DNA of 64,000 bases from the NCBI RefSeq assembly GCF_026410385.1, contig NZ_JAPMLT010000009.1:1-64000 (forward strand). The letters run 5' to 3'. Origin of the DNA: Tumebacillus lacus. GTDB lineage: Bacteria; Bacillota; Bacilli; Tumebacillales; Tumebacillaceae. The first letter of the stretch is position 1. Every line of letters starts with the position of its first letter. Below, piece after piece: positions 57,890 through 63,944 of this stretch. Both the position numbers and the translations under genes were made by a program. The notes beneath the pieces are model-generated. The model was not told where the DNA came from, made no database searches, and saw only the letters and a list, made by a program, of their open reading frames with translations.

Positions 57890-58234
57890 TTATCGGATCA
57901 ACTCCGCGATCTTCTCTTCATCAAGCCCGACGACGATCCCTTTTTCCGTTTGAATGATCGGCCGCTTGATCAGAGTCGGCTCGCAGGCCATCACGTCGGC
58001 CAGATCCTGCTCCGTCATCGCCAGCAGCTCTTCCTTGCGCTCCTTGTATACCGGCGAGTTGGATCGTACCAGATCATGCACCCGCAGACCCATCGCCTGC
58101 GCGACCTCCAGGATCTCACCGGCATTCAACATGCTGTCCACCAGATTCCGTTCGACAACTTCCGCTCCCGAGAGAACCTCTCTCGTCTTTTTGGTCTTGC
58201 TTCAGGTCGGGTGATACATCATCGTGATCGACAT
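57890..58234 (-). CDS. ArsC/Spx/MgsR-family thioredoxin-fold protein, probable selenoprotein with Sec11 encoded by TGA
   Basis: A 114-residue protein if the in-frame TGA at 58202-58204 is read as selenocysteine. It begins MSITMMYHPT, TGA is codon 11, and the frame goes on SKTKKTREVL to a full ArsC/Spx-type domain (NLVD, ELLAMTEQDLADVM, LIKRPIIQTEKGIVVG). In Cys homologues this spot is the catalytic cysteine (HPTCSK). The length fits the ~115-residue family only when the TGA is included. ATG 58234 lies 9 nt after AAAGGAG; the short frame from 58141 has no ribosome binding site and lacks the active site. A near-ideal SECIS hairpin starts 13 nt after the TGA codon's end. Expected role: a thiol/selenol reductase; the RPI motif is shared with arsenate reductases. 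Confidence 0.92.
58169..58185 (-). promoter_or_regulatory. Bacterial SECIS element of the ArsC/Spx-like selenoprotein mRNA
   Basis: A perfect 7-bp stem CGAGAGA / UCUCUCG closing a GGU triloop (plus-strand CGAGAGAACCTCTCTCG). The loop starts 23 nt after the UGA, inside the 16-37 nt window, and has G in both first loop positions, meeting published bacterial SECIS rules. The codons still encode a family-like sequence (TREVLSG), so the hairpin is embedded in coding sequence, as expected for bacteria. Confidence 0.85.
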
Positions 58235-58353: not shown

Positions 58354-58446
58354 ATGACCCCGACCAAACATCAGCGTCAACTCATCCTCGCCTTCATCCA
58401 AAAGAAAATCAGCGAAGACACCCTCCGCCAATCCTTGAAAAAATGA
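58354..58446 (+). CDS. Possible 30-residue basic protein
   Basis: A 30-codon frame with ATG 10 nt after AAAGGAG and a TGA stop followed by a strong hairpin. The product is basic with regular heptad-like Leu/Ile spacing (QLILAFIQKKISEDTLRQSL), suggesting one amphipathic helix. It is divergent from the selenoprotein gene. I do not recognise it; the ribosome binding site, helix-like composition and terminator are the only support. Confidence 0.5.
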   Translation: MTPTKHQRQLILAFIQKKISEDTLRQSLKK

Positions 58447-58540: not shown

Positions 58541-59683
58541 TCAACTCGACTTGCGCATCTGCGCCTGCTTCTCCTCCTCCGCCTCCTTGCGGGCTGCGGC
58601 GAGCTTCTTTTTCCTCAAAAAGCCGGCTGCAAAGACGAGCATCGGCACCCCGAACGCCACCGCGAGCGCGGCCGGCGGCCAGTAGTCGGACAACAGACGC
58701 ATCGCGCGGCCGTGATCGAGCACCACCCAATAGCCAAATCCGCCGAGCACCAGCGTTGTCGGCAGGATCACCGGGCGATAGTCTTTCAGACCGAGCACAT
58801 GCGAGACCGACATGCAGGCGCACATCAGGCTCATCATCGTCTGCACCAGCGCCGACGTCGCGAAAAAGGCGATCATGATCATCTCGTAGCGGTGGATAAA
58901 CTGCCCGATCTCCGCGCTGCGGGCGAGTTGCATGCAAGCGACGATGTACTGCCCCGTCATCTCCGGCGAGAGCACCCCCGCTTCCAAGATCGGCCACTGG
59001 AGGACAAACAGCCCGCCGTACACGATCGCCAGCGGCGCAGACTTTTTCCACGTCAGACGATCTCTCACCAGCGGCAAAATCAACGCCGTCATCAACGTGG
59101 CCATCGCCCAGTCGGTGTCATTGTGGCGAGACGCCTTGATCGTATTCACAAAGCCGTTTTGAAAGACCGGCAGCAGTTCGCGAATATCAAACTGATAGAT
59201 CGACCCGAACAACACCAGCACGTTCAGCGCAATGATCGAAAAACTACCGACCAGCGCCATCCGCGCGATCACCTCCAGCCCTTGATACACCGCGTAGACC
59301 GCAACCGCGCCTCCGACCAAGATGAACACGATCACCGGCACCTCAGGCAAAAAATAATCCATCAGATGATACACAAACGTGATCATCACCGTGCCAAACG
59401 CACCGAGGAAAAAGAGAAAGAGCAAGGCGGCGATCAACTTGCCGCCCCATTTCCCCAGCAACAGTGCCGCCTGCTCCACCATGTTCTTCTCCGGCAACCG
59501 CAGCATGACGATCACCGTGATCAGCATCACCGCCATCCCTTGCAGCGTCGATAAGATCGTCGCCATCCACATGTCACTGCCCGCCTCGCGGGCCATGATC
59601 CCTTGCGTTAGCCCAATCGCCTTGGCATAGACCATATTCACCACCAAGCCCATCAGCATCCCGTTGGTGATGCGCACCTTCAT
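58541..59683 (-). CDS. gerAB: Spore germination receptor subunit B (GerAB/APC superfamily)
   Basis: A 380-residue membrane protein with ten predicted helices of the GerAB/Spore_permease family (PF03845 type). In the spore inner membrane it is the likely nutrient-binding subunit of the A-B-C receptor. The start ATG is 4 nt after GGAAGTGA-type sequence, 4 nt downstream of the gerAC stop. It is the third gene of the operon. The germinant cannot be predicted. Confidence 0.9.
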   Translation of the reverse strand: MKVRITNGMLMGLVVNMVYAKAIGLTQGIMAREAGSDMWMATILSTLQGMAVMLITVIVMLRLPEKNMVEQAALLLGKWGGKLIAALLFLFFLGAFGTVMITFVYHLMDYFLPEVPVIVFILVGGAVAVYAVYQGLEVIARMALVGSFSIIALNVLVLFGSIYQFDIRELLPVFQNGFVNTIKASRHNDTDWAMATLMTALILPLVRDRLTWKKSAPLAIVYGGLFVLQWPILEAGVLSPEMTGQYIVACMQLARSAEIGQFIHRYEMIMIAFFATSALVQTMMSLMCACMSVSHVLGLKDYRPVILPTTLVLGGFGYWVVLDHGRAMRLLSDYWPPAALAVAFGVPMLVFAAGFLRKKKLAAARKEAEEEKQAQMRKSS

Positions 59684-59687
59684 GAGA

Positions 59688-60902
59688 TCACTTCCTTGAT
59701 TTTGTCGCCTTGTGCAGCAAAACCGGGCTGTTGATATTGGCTTCCACCGTCACCCGCACCTGCGCCTTTTCAAACGCATCGTCCCAGCTCTGCGCCATCT
59801 GCCGCCACTCGGCCGGGTAGTGATTTTCAAACACCTTGCCGAGCTCCAGAAAATCCACGTGATAGCGCTTCTGAGCGGCTTCCAGCACACTCTCGATCTC
59901 CCCGCGCAGAAGATCGGCCGCCTCCTTCTCCGCTTGCTGCATCCACACATACTGATCCTCGACATCGGGGCACCCGAGTTCCACCAGATCGATCATGGCC
60001 TTCACCCGCACGTCGAACTCGACCTTCCCCTTCTCATACACCGGCTTCACCTGAAATTTCGCGTTCTTCATCTCCAGCGTCGAACTGCGCTCCCGTTGAC
60101 CTGCGCAAGGCAATGTGATCACTCGTGATTCCACATGTTCGACGAACCAGAGCAGCCCGTGACTCTCCTTGGTCGACAGCCAGCCGACCATCTTGTCCCG
60201 GTTAAACACCGCCGTCCCGGACAGTTCCACCTGCGGATTGGACCCAAACTCCCCGTTCGCCTTGGCGGAGATCTGTCGGTTCTTCGGCGATACGCGAGCC
60301 AGCACCGGATGCGTCGTGCGGCTGAGATAGGCGGCTTGCAACGTTCTCATATCGGTGCGCGGCGCTTCCGCCACGATCTCGCTGTAGCGAAACAGTTTGT
60401 CCATCGACACGCCGGGGATCACCTCAAGACCGGTCTTTGTCGTGATCAAGTGACTGGCCTCATCCTCCGTCACCACCACCCAGGTGCGCATCCGCAACTC
60501 ATGATTGCGCGAAAAAAAGTCGATGATCTCGCTCACCCCTTCGCGAGCCACCTCCTCGTTGATCACGATCACCTGATTGTGAGCCCAAAACACCCGCCTT
60601 GACGAATAGCGAGCCAGATTGCGAATCGCCTCAAAGATCGACCGCCCCTCCGCGCTCGCCGTCCAGATCGGCTGCCCCGTCCCGGCTGTCGGCGCTCCGG
60701 TCTGGCCGCGCACATCGCCGGGACGGGCGATCTGCGCCGTCACCTTGATCGTGCCCGGCTCCTTGCCTTTGTCGAGCCCGACCGCCATCACCATCGCCAA
60801 ATCATCGATCTCACGCGACCCCAGACACCCCGTCATCAGCAGCGATGAGATCACCAGCCACAGAACCAGCGTCGTTCCCTTTACGACTTTCCGCTTCTCC
60901 AC
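59688..60902 (-). CDS. gerAC: Spore germination receptor subunit C lipoprotein (GerAC family)
   Basis: A 404-residue lipoprotein. The lipobox MTGC gives the lipidated cysteine at 26, followed by LGSREIDDLAMVMAVGLD, a hallmark of the family, and a C-terminal Spore_GerAC domain. It anchors to the outer face of the spore inner membrane. Its start overlaps the end of gerAA by 22 nt, indicating translational coupling. Confidence 0.92.
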   Translation of the reverse strand: MEKRKVVKGTTLVLWLVISSLLMTGCLGSREIDDLAMVMAVGLDKGKEPGTIKVTAQIARPGDVRGQTGAPTAGTGQPIWTASAEGRSIFEAIRNLARYSSRRVFWAHNQVIVINEEVAREGVSEIIDFFSRNHELRMRTWVVVTEDEASHLITTKTGLEVIPGVSMDKLFRYSEIVAEAPRTDMRTLQAAYLSRTTHPVLARVSPKNRQISAKANGEFGSNPQVELSGTAVFNRDKMVGWLSTKESHGLLWFVEHVESRVITLPCAGQRERSSTLEMKNAKFQVKPVYEKGKVEFDVRVKAMIDLVELGCPDVEDQYVWMQQAEKEAADLLRGEIESVLEAAQKRYHVDFLELGKVFENHYPAEWRQMAQSWDDAFEKAQVRVTVEANINSPVLLHKATKSRK

Positions 60903-62551
60903 GGCCGACTCCCCTTTCGCTTCCCTTTGCCAGCGTTTGGCGCCTCCTCCTCATCCGCCATCCGCGATTCCGCACTCTCGTCTCCCTCCCCCTCCTCATC
61001 GGGGGGAGCCGGCATCTGATTCGGGCCCATCCTCGTATCATCCGCCCCCGCGACCGCCGGCCGTCGATTCATCATCCAGATCGGCATCCGCAGCACCAGA
61101 TCCTGTTGCTCGGACGGTTGAAACGGCGCCGCGGGCGACAGGTAGGACTGTCCGAACGAGCGCAAGGACAGCGCATGCAACACCAACAGCGAAAACACCG
61201 CCGCAAATCCGAGCAGCCCCAGCGCCCCCGACGCCAGCAACAGCGGAAAGCGCAACACCCGGATCGAAAACGACGCCGCATAATTGGGGATCGCAAACGA
61301 CGAGATCCCCGTGATCGCCACCACGATCACCATCGTCGGCGACACCAGCCCGGCCTGCACCGCCGCCTGCCCGACGACCAGCGACCCGACAATCGACACC
61401 GCCTGCCCGACCGGACGCGGCATGCGCAGCCCCGCCTCACGCATCAGCTCAAACGCCACCTCCATCACCATTGCTTCGAGAAGAGCCGGAAACGGCACAG
61501 ACTCGCGCCCGGCCGCAATCGACAAGGCAAGTGCCGTCGGGATCATCTCTTGATGAAACGACACCAGCATCACATACATCGACGGAAACGTCAGCGAGAT
61601 AAAAAACGCGATAAACCGAACCAACCGAAAAAACGACCCGGCCCAATACCGCGAATAAAAATCATCGCTCGCCTGCAAAAACTGCCAAAACGTTGTCGGC
61701 AAGATCAGCACAAACGGCGTATTGTCCACAAAGATCGCGACGCGCCCTTCCAGCAGCGACGACGCCACCTTATCCGGTCGCTCCGTACTTTGGATCGTCG
61801 TAAACGGCGACAGCGGTGCATCCTCGATCAACTCTTCGATATACCCGCTCTCCAAAATCCCGTCGATCCGAATGCTCTGCAGCCGCTTGTAAACCTCCTC
61901 CACCAGACCTTCCCGCACGACGCCTTTGATATAGGCCACATTGATATCCGTGCGCGTCCGATCCCCGATCTGGAGACCCTCGATCTGCAGATTCGCATCC
62001 CTGATCCGCCGGCGCATCAGGGCCGTATTCGTCCGGATATTCTCCGTAAACCCGTCGCGCGGCCCGCGGACGACCGGTTCCGTGGTCGGCTCATCGATCG
62101 AGCGGGCCTCCCACCCCCTCGTCGAGATGAGAAACCCCTCTCCGCAGCCTTCCAAAAACAGCACCGTATCCCCCGACAACAGCCCGTTGATCGCTGTATC
62201 TATCTTGTCAAACAACAGAATTCCCGTATTGGTCAACACATGCTTCTTTATCTCTTCTGCAAACTGCGGCCCGAGATGCGCATGCTGAAACCGCTCCAAC
62301 TCCGCCGTATGCATCGTCAACGGACGCATGATGCTGTGGTCGATCTCCTTGGGACTCACCAAGCCATCCACAAAAAACACGATCCCGGTCAAATTCCGCT
62401 GCTCGTGATACACAAACTCGCGCTTGATCAAATCGGCGTTCCCGCCCAACACATCCTCGACACAGCAGACATTGTCGGCCAGATCAGTCGACACGCGTTC
62501 CTTGAGAAGTTCCCCAACATCCCGCATCCCAAACCAACCCTCTTTTTCCAT
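60881..62551 (-). CDS. gerAA: Spore germination receptor subunit A (GerAA family)
   Basis: A 556-residue subunit. The N-terminal soluble GerA domain (LIKREF, TNTGILLFD, REARSIDEPTTEPVVRGPRDGF-like stretch) is followed by about five helices (PVGQAVSIVGSLVVGQAAV) and a Pro/Glu-rich hydrophilic tail. The VVRGPRDGF motif is diagnostic. The start is uncertain: ATG 62566, 62551 and 62527 are all in frame. 62527 has GAGGG 10 nt upstream; 62551 is a compromise. It is first in the A-C-B operon, divergent from two plus-strand genes. Confidence 0.9.
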   Translation of the reverse strand: MEKEGWFGMRDVGELLKERVSTDLADNVCCVEDVLGGNADLIKREFVYHEQRNLTGIVFFVDGLVSPKEIDHSIMRPLTMHTAELERFQHAHLGPQFAEEIKKHVLTNTGILLFDKIDTAINGLLSGDTVLFLEGCGEGFLISTRGWEARSIDEPTTEPVVRGPRDGFTENIRTNTALMRRRIRDANLQIEGLQIGDRTRTDINVAYIKGVVREGLVEEVYKRLQSIRIDGILESGYIEELIEDAPLSPFTTIQSTERPDKVASSLLEGRVAIFVDNTPFVLILPTTFWQFLQASDDFYSRYWAGSFFRLVRFIAFFISLTFPSMYVMLVSFHQEMIPTALALSIAAGRESVPFPALLEAMVMEVAFELMREAGLRMPRPVGQAVSIVGSLVVGQAAVQAGLVSPTMVIVVAITGISSFAIPNYAASFSIRVLRFPLLLASGALGLLGFAAVFSLLVLHALSLRSFGQSYLSPAAPFQPSEQQDLVLRMPIWMMNRRPAVAGADDTRMGPNQMPAPPDEEGEGDESAESRMADEEEAPNAGKGKRKGSRPWRSGKS

Positions 62552-62617
62552 CGTTTTGCTTATCATTCCAAAAACAGGGCAACTTAATCCAAATACTGCG
62601 TATCCGGAGGAACGCCA

Positions 62618-62785
62618 ATGGATCTCTATCACAACTGGGTCTACGTCCACGTCCTGAACACCCCTTGGTTTGTCTGGGGCATCGTCCTCATCGTCCTCAC
62701 CTTCAACCTCCTCTCCCCGGTGATCCTCTGGATCACCTTCAGCGGCCGCAAGATCCGCTGGCAAAGCATCAAAAAACAACTCTGA
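62618..62785 (+). CDS. Small single-helix membrane protein (55 residues)
   Basis: A 55-codon frame starting ATG 7 nt after GGAGG, with a TGA stop. One long hydrophobic helix (PWFVWGIVLIVLTFNLLSPV) is followed by a basic tail (SGRKIRWQSIKKQL), predicting a single-pass inner-membrane protein with its C-terminus inside. It lies 22 nt before the hydrolase-like gene on the same strand and is divergent from gerAA, so it is probably co-transcribed with the hydrolase gene. Family unknown. Confidence 0.72.
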   Translation: MDLYHNWVYVHVLNTPWFVWGIVLIVLTFNLLSPVILWITFSGRKIRWQSIKKQL

Positions 62786-62807
62786 ACTGCGAAAGGAGAC
62801 CTTCCTC

Positions 62808-63944
62808 ATGAACCAAGCATTCAAATTCCGCGACCGCACCCGCTACATCATCAACACCGACCGGGACGGCCAGCCGTCCCAAAGCGGCCAAGTCCACAGC
62901 AGCCCCGAACAACTCCAATCGGTCATCGCCAACATCCTCGACTTCTTTGCCCATCAAGACAACCAAAACACCCCGCCGCGCCTGCTCTTCTACTGCCACG
63001 GCGGCCTCGTCGACGAAGCCCGCGCCCTCCAGATCATGCAGCGCCAATACCGCAACTACCTGCAAAACAACATCTACCCCGTCTTCTTCATCTGGGAATC
63101 CGGGTTCTTTGACATCCTCGAAGACGTCGGCAACTCCCTCGTCAGCGAAATCTTCGACCCCGTCGCGCCCCAACACACCCGTTTCTTCTCCCACATCTTC
63201 CGAGGCGAAGGCCCCCTCGACGAGACCATCGAAGAGCTCGCCAAAGGCTTCTCCGGCGGGTGGTCGGCTTGCAAAGAGCGTGCAAGCCGCGTCTTTGGCG
63301 ACGGCGGTTTCGGTTGGCAGTTTCTCACCCAACTCCTCACCGCCCTCCGCTCCCGCAACCTCCATCCCGAGTTCCACGTCGTCGGCCACAGCGCGGGCGC
63401 GCTCGTCCTCGGCGAGTTGCTGCGCAACCTGCGCACCCACCGGATCGACCTCCCGATCCGCACCTGTTCCCTCTACGCCCCAGCGTGCTCCCTCGCCTAC
63501 TTCGACGACACCTACATCCCGGAGATCACCGCCCCCACCCAGCGCATCGCCGAATTCTACCTCTACACCTTGACCGACGACGAAGAAAAAGCGGACGCCT
63601 GCATCCCCGTCCGCTTCTATCGCTACACCCTCTTTTCCATCTACCGCAAATCCCTGCTCTACCTCATCTCCCGCGGCCTCGAAGGAGCGGCAGAAGACGT
63701 GCCGCTCCTCGGCATGGAGCGCTACGCCGTCGAATCGGCCAACCTCGCCCACATCTGGGCGGCAGCCCGAGGTGCCCATGTCACCTCCGGCACGGATGTC
63801 ACCTGCACCTCCGCCGTCGACGCCTGCACCTTGCATCTCTCCTTCAGCCAGCACACCCACGGCGGCTTCGGCGAGACCGCACAGGTTCTGAGCAGCACCT
63901 TAAAGACCATCCGCCGCGAGGACGCCCTCACCTACCCATTTTGA
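62808..63944 (+). CDS. Alpha/beta-hydrolase-like protein of unknown function
   Basis: A 378-residue protein without signal peptide. A GHSAG nucleophile elbow (193-197, Ser195) and an upstream YCHGG (62-66), placed like an oxyanion-hole motif, indicate an alpha/beta-hydrolase fold. A later Asp (for example in YFDDTYIPE) and His (HTHGGFGE near the C-terminus) could complete a triad. The spacing around the elbow is unlike the common lipase or esterase families, and I cannot assign a subfamily. AAAGGAG lies about 9 nt before the ATG. It is probably in an operon with the 55-residue membrane protein. Confidence 0.75.
   Translation: MNQAFKFRDRTRYIINTDRDGQPSQSGQVHSSPEQLQSVIANILDFFAHQDNQNTPPRLLFYCHGGLVDEARALQIMQRQYRNYLQNNIYPVFFIWESGFFDILEDVGNSLVSEIFDPVAPQHTRFFSHIFRGEGPLDETIEELAKGFSGGWSACKERASRVFGDGGFGWQFLTQLLTALRSRNLHPEFHVVGHSAGALVLGELLRNLRTHRIDLPIRTCSLYAPACSLAYFDDTYIPEITAPTQRIAEFYLYTLTDDEEKADACIPVRFYRYTLFSIYRKSLLYLISRGLEGAAEDVPLLGMERYAVESANLAHIWAAARGAHVTSGTDVTCTSAVDACTLHLSFSQHTHGGFGETAQVLSSTLKTIRREDALTYPF

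Follow-up and report, generated by a model that had tools for sequence, protein, structure and literature searches.

In a 64,000-nucleotide stretch of Tumebacillus lacus DNA (the window), one minus-strand gene is best explained as encoding a selenoprotein, namely an ArsC-fold protein with selenocysteine (Sec) in place of the catalytic cysteine, a reading to which we assign a probability of roughly 0.9. That the gene encodes a selenoprotein is nearly certain from sequence comparison, from which we infer the actual insertion of Sec. The initial annotation of the window had proposed a selenoprotein at this position, and the proposal is supported by a complete set of Sec machinery in the genome and by four more genomes that carry the same TGA.

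With the TGA counted as a residue, the gene forms a single open frame of 114 amino acids that begins MSITMMYHPT-U-SKTKK (Table 1). The initial annotation had described a frame that runs from an ATG and is interrupted by TGA at codon 11 alone, which is borne out, the minus strand being added here. It had also anticipated that standard gene calling would yield a shortened fragment that starts near 58141 and lacks the active site, and the 83-residue frame beginning with GTG is confirmed. An Rfam scan of the window returned no match at gathering level, and a permissive Rfam scan of the 3.3-kb locus returned seven matches, every one under its gathering score.

Table 1. Positions in the window of the probable selenoprotein gene and of the features associated with it.
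Feature	Position	Strand	Basis or extent
Probable selenoprotein gene, ArsC family PF03960, Sec at residue 11	57890..58234	-	114 codons plus TAA
ATG start	58234-58232	-	Sequence
In-frame TGA, codon 11, probably read as selenocysteine	58204-58202	-	Orthologue alignment, TGA 5/9, TGT/TGC 4/9
TAA stop	57892-57890	-	Sequence
Ribosome-binding site AAAGGAG, nine bases before ATG	58250-58244	-	Sequence
SECIS-type hairpin, 7-bp stem, GGU loop	58169..58185	-	Folding and published model limits
Standard-code reading, GTG-started 83-residue fragment without active site	57890..58141	-	Sequence

TGA and cysteine codons among relatives

In a class-level survey of 398 Bacilli genomes, with subfamily membership set at E <= 1e-20, the subfamily is present in nine. 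Codon 11 is TGA in five of these, namely T. lacus itself (G000), T. avium (G005), G006, G011, which belongs to another family of the order, and G032, which is taken from its coordinates to be the MAG L042. It is TGT or TGC in the other four, G001 to G004, of which G002 is taken to be T. flagellatus and G003 to be T. permanentifrigoris. The initial annotation had placed the TGA at the catalytic-cysteine codon of the family and had suggested aligning homologues for Cys or Sec; the orthologues with TGT or TGC align at exactly this codon. An in-frame UGA aligned with Cys in homologues, the pattern by which bacterial selenoproteins are recognized, is thus what the subfamily presents. Judged from this alignment, the occurrence of TGA at the catalytic-cysteine codon is far beyond chance, and it is on this apparent Sec/Cys conservation that the case for a selenoprotein rests.

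The alignment of the nine members has no internal gap between residue 14 and the C-terminal end compared. Every family genome examined (7/7) holds one orthologue and one distant paralogue at E <= 0.001. A scan with two peptide patterns found four named loci, three of them from Tumebacillus and one from a MAG called Bacillaceae, and a survey of 398 genomes drawn from the phylum returned, besides the T. lacus gene, a single weak match (G402, 59.1 bits).

The residues that follow position 11 vary among the members. Specifically, the site reads U-S-K-T/N in the three Sec forms of the Tumebacillus family, U-R-K-T in the MAG, U-G-K-N in G011, and C-S-K-S in all four Cys forms, and the codon right after the TGA is AGC, AGG, or GGG depending on lineage. 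Although only one base separates TGA from a Cys codon, a sequencing or assembly error for TGC or TGT appears very unlikely, to the point of being negligible. The same TGA is found in four other genomes, two of which (G011 and the MAG) fall outside the family of T. lacus, and, since lineages differ in the codon that follows it, the TGA records are not copies of one erroneous record.

The alternative that the TGA is a true stop, leaving either a pseudogene or a 10-residue leader followed by a restarted 83-residue fragment, draws on the GTG at 58141, which can start such a frame, and on the downstream hairpin, which by itself is not unusual. This alternative is nevertheless highly improbable. Five genomes retain TGA at this codon, and dN/dS for the whole frame is 0.08–0.21 in eight of ten pairs (undefined in the other two, with dS mostly above 1), including 0.19 for T. 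lacus versus T. avium and 0.08 for T. avium versus G006. Over codons 2–30, a short and noisy stretch that spans the TGA, dN/dS is 0–0.67 across the ten pairs and 0.33 for T. lacus versus T. avium. Furthermore, the YHPT-x-SK sequence around the TGA agrees with that of the intact Cys orthologues, and a restart would cost the protein strand 1 and the active site of its compact predicted fold. From these substitution ratios, the constrained frame evidently continues past the TGA.

Sec machinery and the hairpin after the TGA

The T. lacus genome (4.18 Mb in 26 contigs, completeness 95.74) holds selA, selB, tRNA-Sec, and selD together. In particular, we found a tRNA-Sec with anticodon TCA (65.8 bits), SelB (389.4 bits against a cut-off of 242.25), SelA (614.3 bits), and SelD (414.4 bits). 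The initial annotation had proposed these four components as a check and had named absence of the pathway as the outcome that would overturn its reading; with all four in the genome, that objection falls away. SelD adjoins SelA, directly after it, and contains one in-frame TGA, at KAG-U-GCKIGP. Because of this in-frame TGA, and because Table 1 of PMC13188914 counts SelD, with UxxK, among the verified selenoproteins, the SelD of T. lacus is itself taken to be a selenoprotein. Its TGA lies near the start of the gene (L092 7794-8723; G000:C21:167793-168722), and the longest standard-code frame begins past the TGA.

Every TGA genome (5/5) and three of the four Cys genomes have a SelB that scores above the cut-off. 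In G002, G003, and G004, SelB is present although the ArsC-like gene is in the Cys form. A SelB search of G001, a Cys-form genome of the same genus with a completeness of 100, found none above the cut-off, and G001 looks to have lost Sec use. Since a search of 15 genomes, with or without the TGA gene, found SelB above the cut-off in 14, having SelB makes Sec possible without pointing to the ArsC-like gene in particular.

The stem of the hairpin pairs 58185-58179 with 58175-58169 around a loop at 58178-58176, and the hairpin spans nt 17–33 downstream of the UGA, with the loop starting 23 nt after it. The geometry given by the initial annotation is therefore exact. According to PMC13188914, a bSECIS element has a loop of 3–9 nt with G in its first two positions, a stem of 4–16 bp, a distance of 16–37 nt from the UGA, and an MFE <= -7.5; the T. 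lacus hairpin falls within these limits, with a predicted energy of -9.5 kcal/mol (RNAfold). When nt 10–42 after the UGA are folded by RNAfold, all five TGA genes form a 3-nt loop that begins with G and lies 23 or 24 nt after the UGA, with MFE values of -7.9 to -10.7 kcal/mol, again within the limits. Four of the five share the 7-bp stem, in which the MAG replaces the bottom C-G pair with U-A. In G011 the same folding gives a shifted stem with one bulge; this gene breaks three pairs in the register of the T. lacus stem, and RNAfold gives it another fold when a 45-nt stretch including the TGA is used.

By itself, the hairpin is weak evidence and not beyond chance. Its z-score is -0.72, 22.6% of 1000 dinucleotide shuffles are at least as stable, and 125 of the 1927 TGAs in the window pass a strict unbulged version of the bSECIS limits (6.5%, both strands), so the hairpin that the initial annotation had called "ideal" carries little weight alone. 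The Cys orthologue of G004 also passes the hairpin limits (-11.9), and with the strict unbulged version the hairpins of the MAG (-7.1) and G011 (-2.7) do not reach -7.5. Covariation is confined to one compensated pair of seven, a level reached by 206 of 500 shuffles.

Codons 18–23 cover most of the hairpin, and codon choice there is better conserved between genes than at other same-residue codons (hypergeometric test, 36 pairs computed, p-values uncorrected). Between T. lacus and T. avium, codons 18–23 are identical at 6/6 positions versus 37/69 elsewhere (p 0.03). The corresponding counts for T. lacus are 6/6 versus 39/67 with G006 (p 0.05), 5/6 versus 23/54 with the MAG (p 0.07), and 3/6 versus 18/53 with G011 (p 0.36). 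Across seven window genes, AGA makes up 2.9% of 174 Arg codons and GTT 7.1% of 269 Val codons; both occur in this stretch, GTT in all five TGA genes and AGA in four of them.

Fold, family, and predicted chemistry

The protein matches Pfam ArsC (PF03960) at 57.8 bits against a cut-off of 24, which places it in this superfamily. Its AlphaFold model has a mean pLDDT of 93.3 (13 rows), and the predicted fold is that of ArsC: the structural matches ranked 1–19 are all ArsC/Spx/YffB-type proteins, with Z-scores of 14.0–16.6 over 111–114 residues. Top matches include the ArsC-related 3gkx (Z 16.6), Spx 1z3e (16.2), YffB 1rw1 (15.9), and E. coli ArsC (14.2). The "ArsC/Spx-family" label of the initial annotation stands at the Pfam level; among NCBIfam profiles, neither an ArsC nor a Spx cut-off is reached, nor is that of a nitrogenase-associated relative. 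A search of plasmids returned 1842 records, all below 60% identity, and among the 20 matches listed, 17 are annotated spxA or arsC and three are unannotated; these records served solely for comparison.

It seems doubtful that Sec simply replaces Cys12 in what would otherwise be a classical glutaredoxin-linked arsenate reductase. The Cys orthologues carry a CxxS-type site, and, in an alignment to a Citrobacter plasmid ArsC, Arg57 and Arg91 correspond to ArsC Arg60 and Arg94 and are invariant in all nine members, as such a function would predict. However, the score against TIGR00014, the profile of this reductase, is 48.5 bits with a cut-off of 106.05, and in the nine members Leu, Val, or Phe stands where ArsC has its third arginine (Arg107), leaving two of the three residues of the 60/94/107 triad described as essential for ArsC function (PMC3169414). 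Moreover, no ars gene is found among the eight window frames checked around the Sec gene, which comprise spore-germination, MATE, PucR-type regulator, and ABC ATPase frames and two that are unmatched. Arsenate is a possible substrate, though unlikely to be the main one.

The selenoprotein is unlikely to be a non-enzymatic, Spx-like protein that senses redox state in partnership with RNA polymerase. The closest NCBIfam profile by E-value is Spx NF002459 and Spx chains are among the top structural matches, but the scores lie under the cut-offs of both Spx profiles, at 52.4 versus 123 bits for NF002459 and 45.2 versus 75.05 bits for TIGR01617 (Spx/MgsR). In the alignment of nine members, the CxxC redox switch of Spx is replaced by UxxT/N or CxxS. 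Furthermore, the position of Spx Gly52, a residue on which contact with the alpha subunit of RNA polymerase depends (PMC2801614), is Arg51 in T. lacus and Arg, Lys, or Thr in 9/9 members, and never Gly.

We favor a one-selenol oxidoreductase that works with an external thiol, because no other Cys is conserved in the alignment of members; such an activity is reasonably likely for this protein. In the mechanism that we propose, a ribosome at UGA codon 11 would receive Sec-tRNA(Sec) from SelB, guided by the downstream hairpin, and Sec would replace the catalytic Cys of a one-domain ArsC-fold (thioredoxin-like) protein. Sec11, aided by Arg57 and Arg91, would attack an oxidized substrate, potentially an oxyanion or a disulfide. 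The resulting selenium adduct would then be resolved by a thiol from outside the protein, for instance a low-molecular-weight thiol or a redoxin, since the family conserves no second Cys.

Neighborhood, Sec history, and known relatives

Downstream of the Sec gene, the window carries in turn genes for a MATE protein, a PucR-type regulator, and an ABC ATPase. Compared by eye in two genomes, T. avium (Sec form) and T. permanentifrigoris (Cys form), the downstream frames begin or end alike and lie in the same order, and Sec and Cys forms within Tumebacillus adjoin the same MATE-type neighbor. The gerA-type genes upstream in the window have similar frames in T. avium and none in T. permanentifrigoris, and the MAG and G011 copies have other neighbors. 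These upstream spore germination genes (GerA, GerAC, spore permease) occupy 58541-62839 on the minus strand.

Two further frames of the window lie on the plus strand. A 30-residue frame, MTPTKHQ...LKK, at 58354-58446, stands behind AAAGGAG and is divergent from the Sec gene. Similar peptides occur close to two Cys orthologues, that of T. permanentifrigoris (L040/L021, 68% over 31) and that of G004 (L024, 50% over 32); among the loci compared, T. avium included, there is no further good match, and a Pfam search gave none. The second, a 378-residue frame at 62808-63944, has no Pfam match at E <= 0.001.

In the SelB tree, T. lacus groups with G002 and G003, apart from G004–G006 (100/100). The ArsC-gene tree (nine rows) supports only the Cys clade G001–G003 and, within it, G001 with G002; the T. 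lacus Sec gene joins this Cys clade weakly (60/78), and a single clade of all Sec genes is not rejected (p-AU 0.313). By parsimony, Sec would be ancestral and two changes to Cys would have followed, a history that is a parsimony reading only, because the gene tree is weak and the all-Sec clade is not rejected.

Bacteria often have formate dehydrogenase as their only selenoprotein (PMC13188914). Formate dehydrogenase matches without an in-frame stop number three in T. lacus (E <= 1e-60), one in T. avium, and one in G006; G011 has one match, below the cut-off and without a stop, and the MAG has one match with TGA and one without. When the Sec/Cys site of formate dehydrogenase was sought by motif, no clear site emerged. 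Because the matches carry no in-frame stop, formate dehydrogenase is probably not a Sec client in the Tumebacillus family. Since this holds in the three family genomes with the Sec form, a tentative suggestion is that Tumebacillus keeps the whole Sec pathway for one small ArsC-fold enzyme and SelD, with Sec changed to Cys at least twice and, in one lineage, together with loss of SelB. If true, the Tumebacillus group would offer a compact natural experiment on the reasons for keeping Sec. Sec and Cys orthologues occur here in close relatives, with the same neighbors where compared and with one lineage that has no SelB above the cut-off. These orthologues, of about 114 residues, are closely matched, and the gain from Sec over Cys therefore becomes testable.

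Sec-containing relatives of ArsC have been reported before. The Sargasso Sea study of 2005 describes a Sec-containing arsenate reductase (COG1393/TIGR00014, UxxS, 14 sequences; PMC1088965), the GOS study of 2008 lists ArsC 1 and, with a UxxC site, "Arsenate reductase 2" (cd03032) (PMC2398784), and an ArsC-like selenoprotein is reported in deltaproteobacteria (PMC1794560). Table 1 of the 2026 inventory contains only UxxS and UxxC forms of arsenate reductase, with NF041106 as the UxxC form (PMC13188914); the same paper gives MBT3519430.1 and MDE3003982.1 as accessions of marine Sec-ArsC proteins. In listings of the open-licence literature on selenocysteine in Tumebacillus, Alicyclobacillaceae, and Spx and on Sec-ArsC proteins, we found no report of this protein, and the main text of the deep-Sep paper makes no mention of ArsC, arsenate, Tumebacillus, Bacilli, or Spx. 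The present gene thus adds a selenoprotein that is shortened by standard-code reading, in a part of the Bacilli for which the same literature listings yielded no selenoprotein report.

The predicted fold of the Tumebacillus protein is shared with B. subtilis Spx (1z3e, 3gfk, 7f75; Z 15.1–16.2, about 27% identity), except that the Tumebacillus protein has neither CxxC nor an equivalent of Gly52 and scores below the curated cut-offs. It is likewise shared with E. coli ArsC (1i9d, 1s3c, 1jzw; Z 14.2), of which the equivalents of Arg60 and Arg94 are kept, whereas the Tumebacillus protein has no Arg107 equivalent, a shorter C-terminus, and no adjoining ars gene. With the UxxC form (NF041106/cd03032) it has in common being an ArsC-like selenoprotein; its own site is UxxT/N, and it has no match to NF041106 at E <= 0.001, nor has any of the seven members scanned at E <= 0.01. 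With the marine Sec-ArsC proteins, compared here by their published descriptions (PMC1088965, PMC2398784), it shares the superfamily, Sec in the arsenate reductase active-site motif, and a SECIS element just downstream, and it differs from the UxxS form in its UxxT/UxxN site, its occurrence in Bacilli, and a score less than half the TIGR00014 cut-off. Sec-ArsC is a kind of protein already known, and what is new here is a Tumebacillus member with the variant site UxxT/N.
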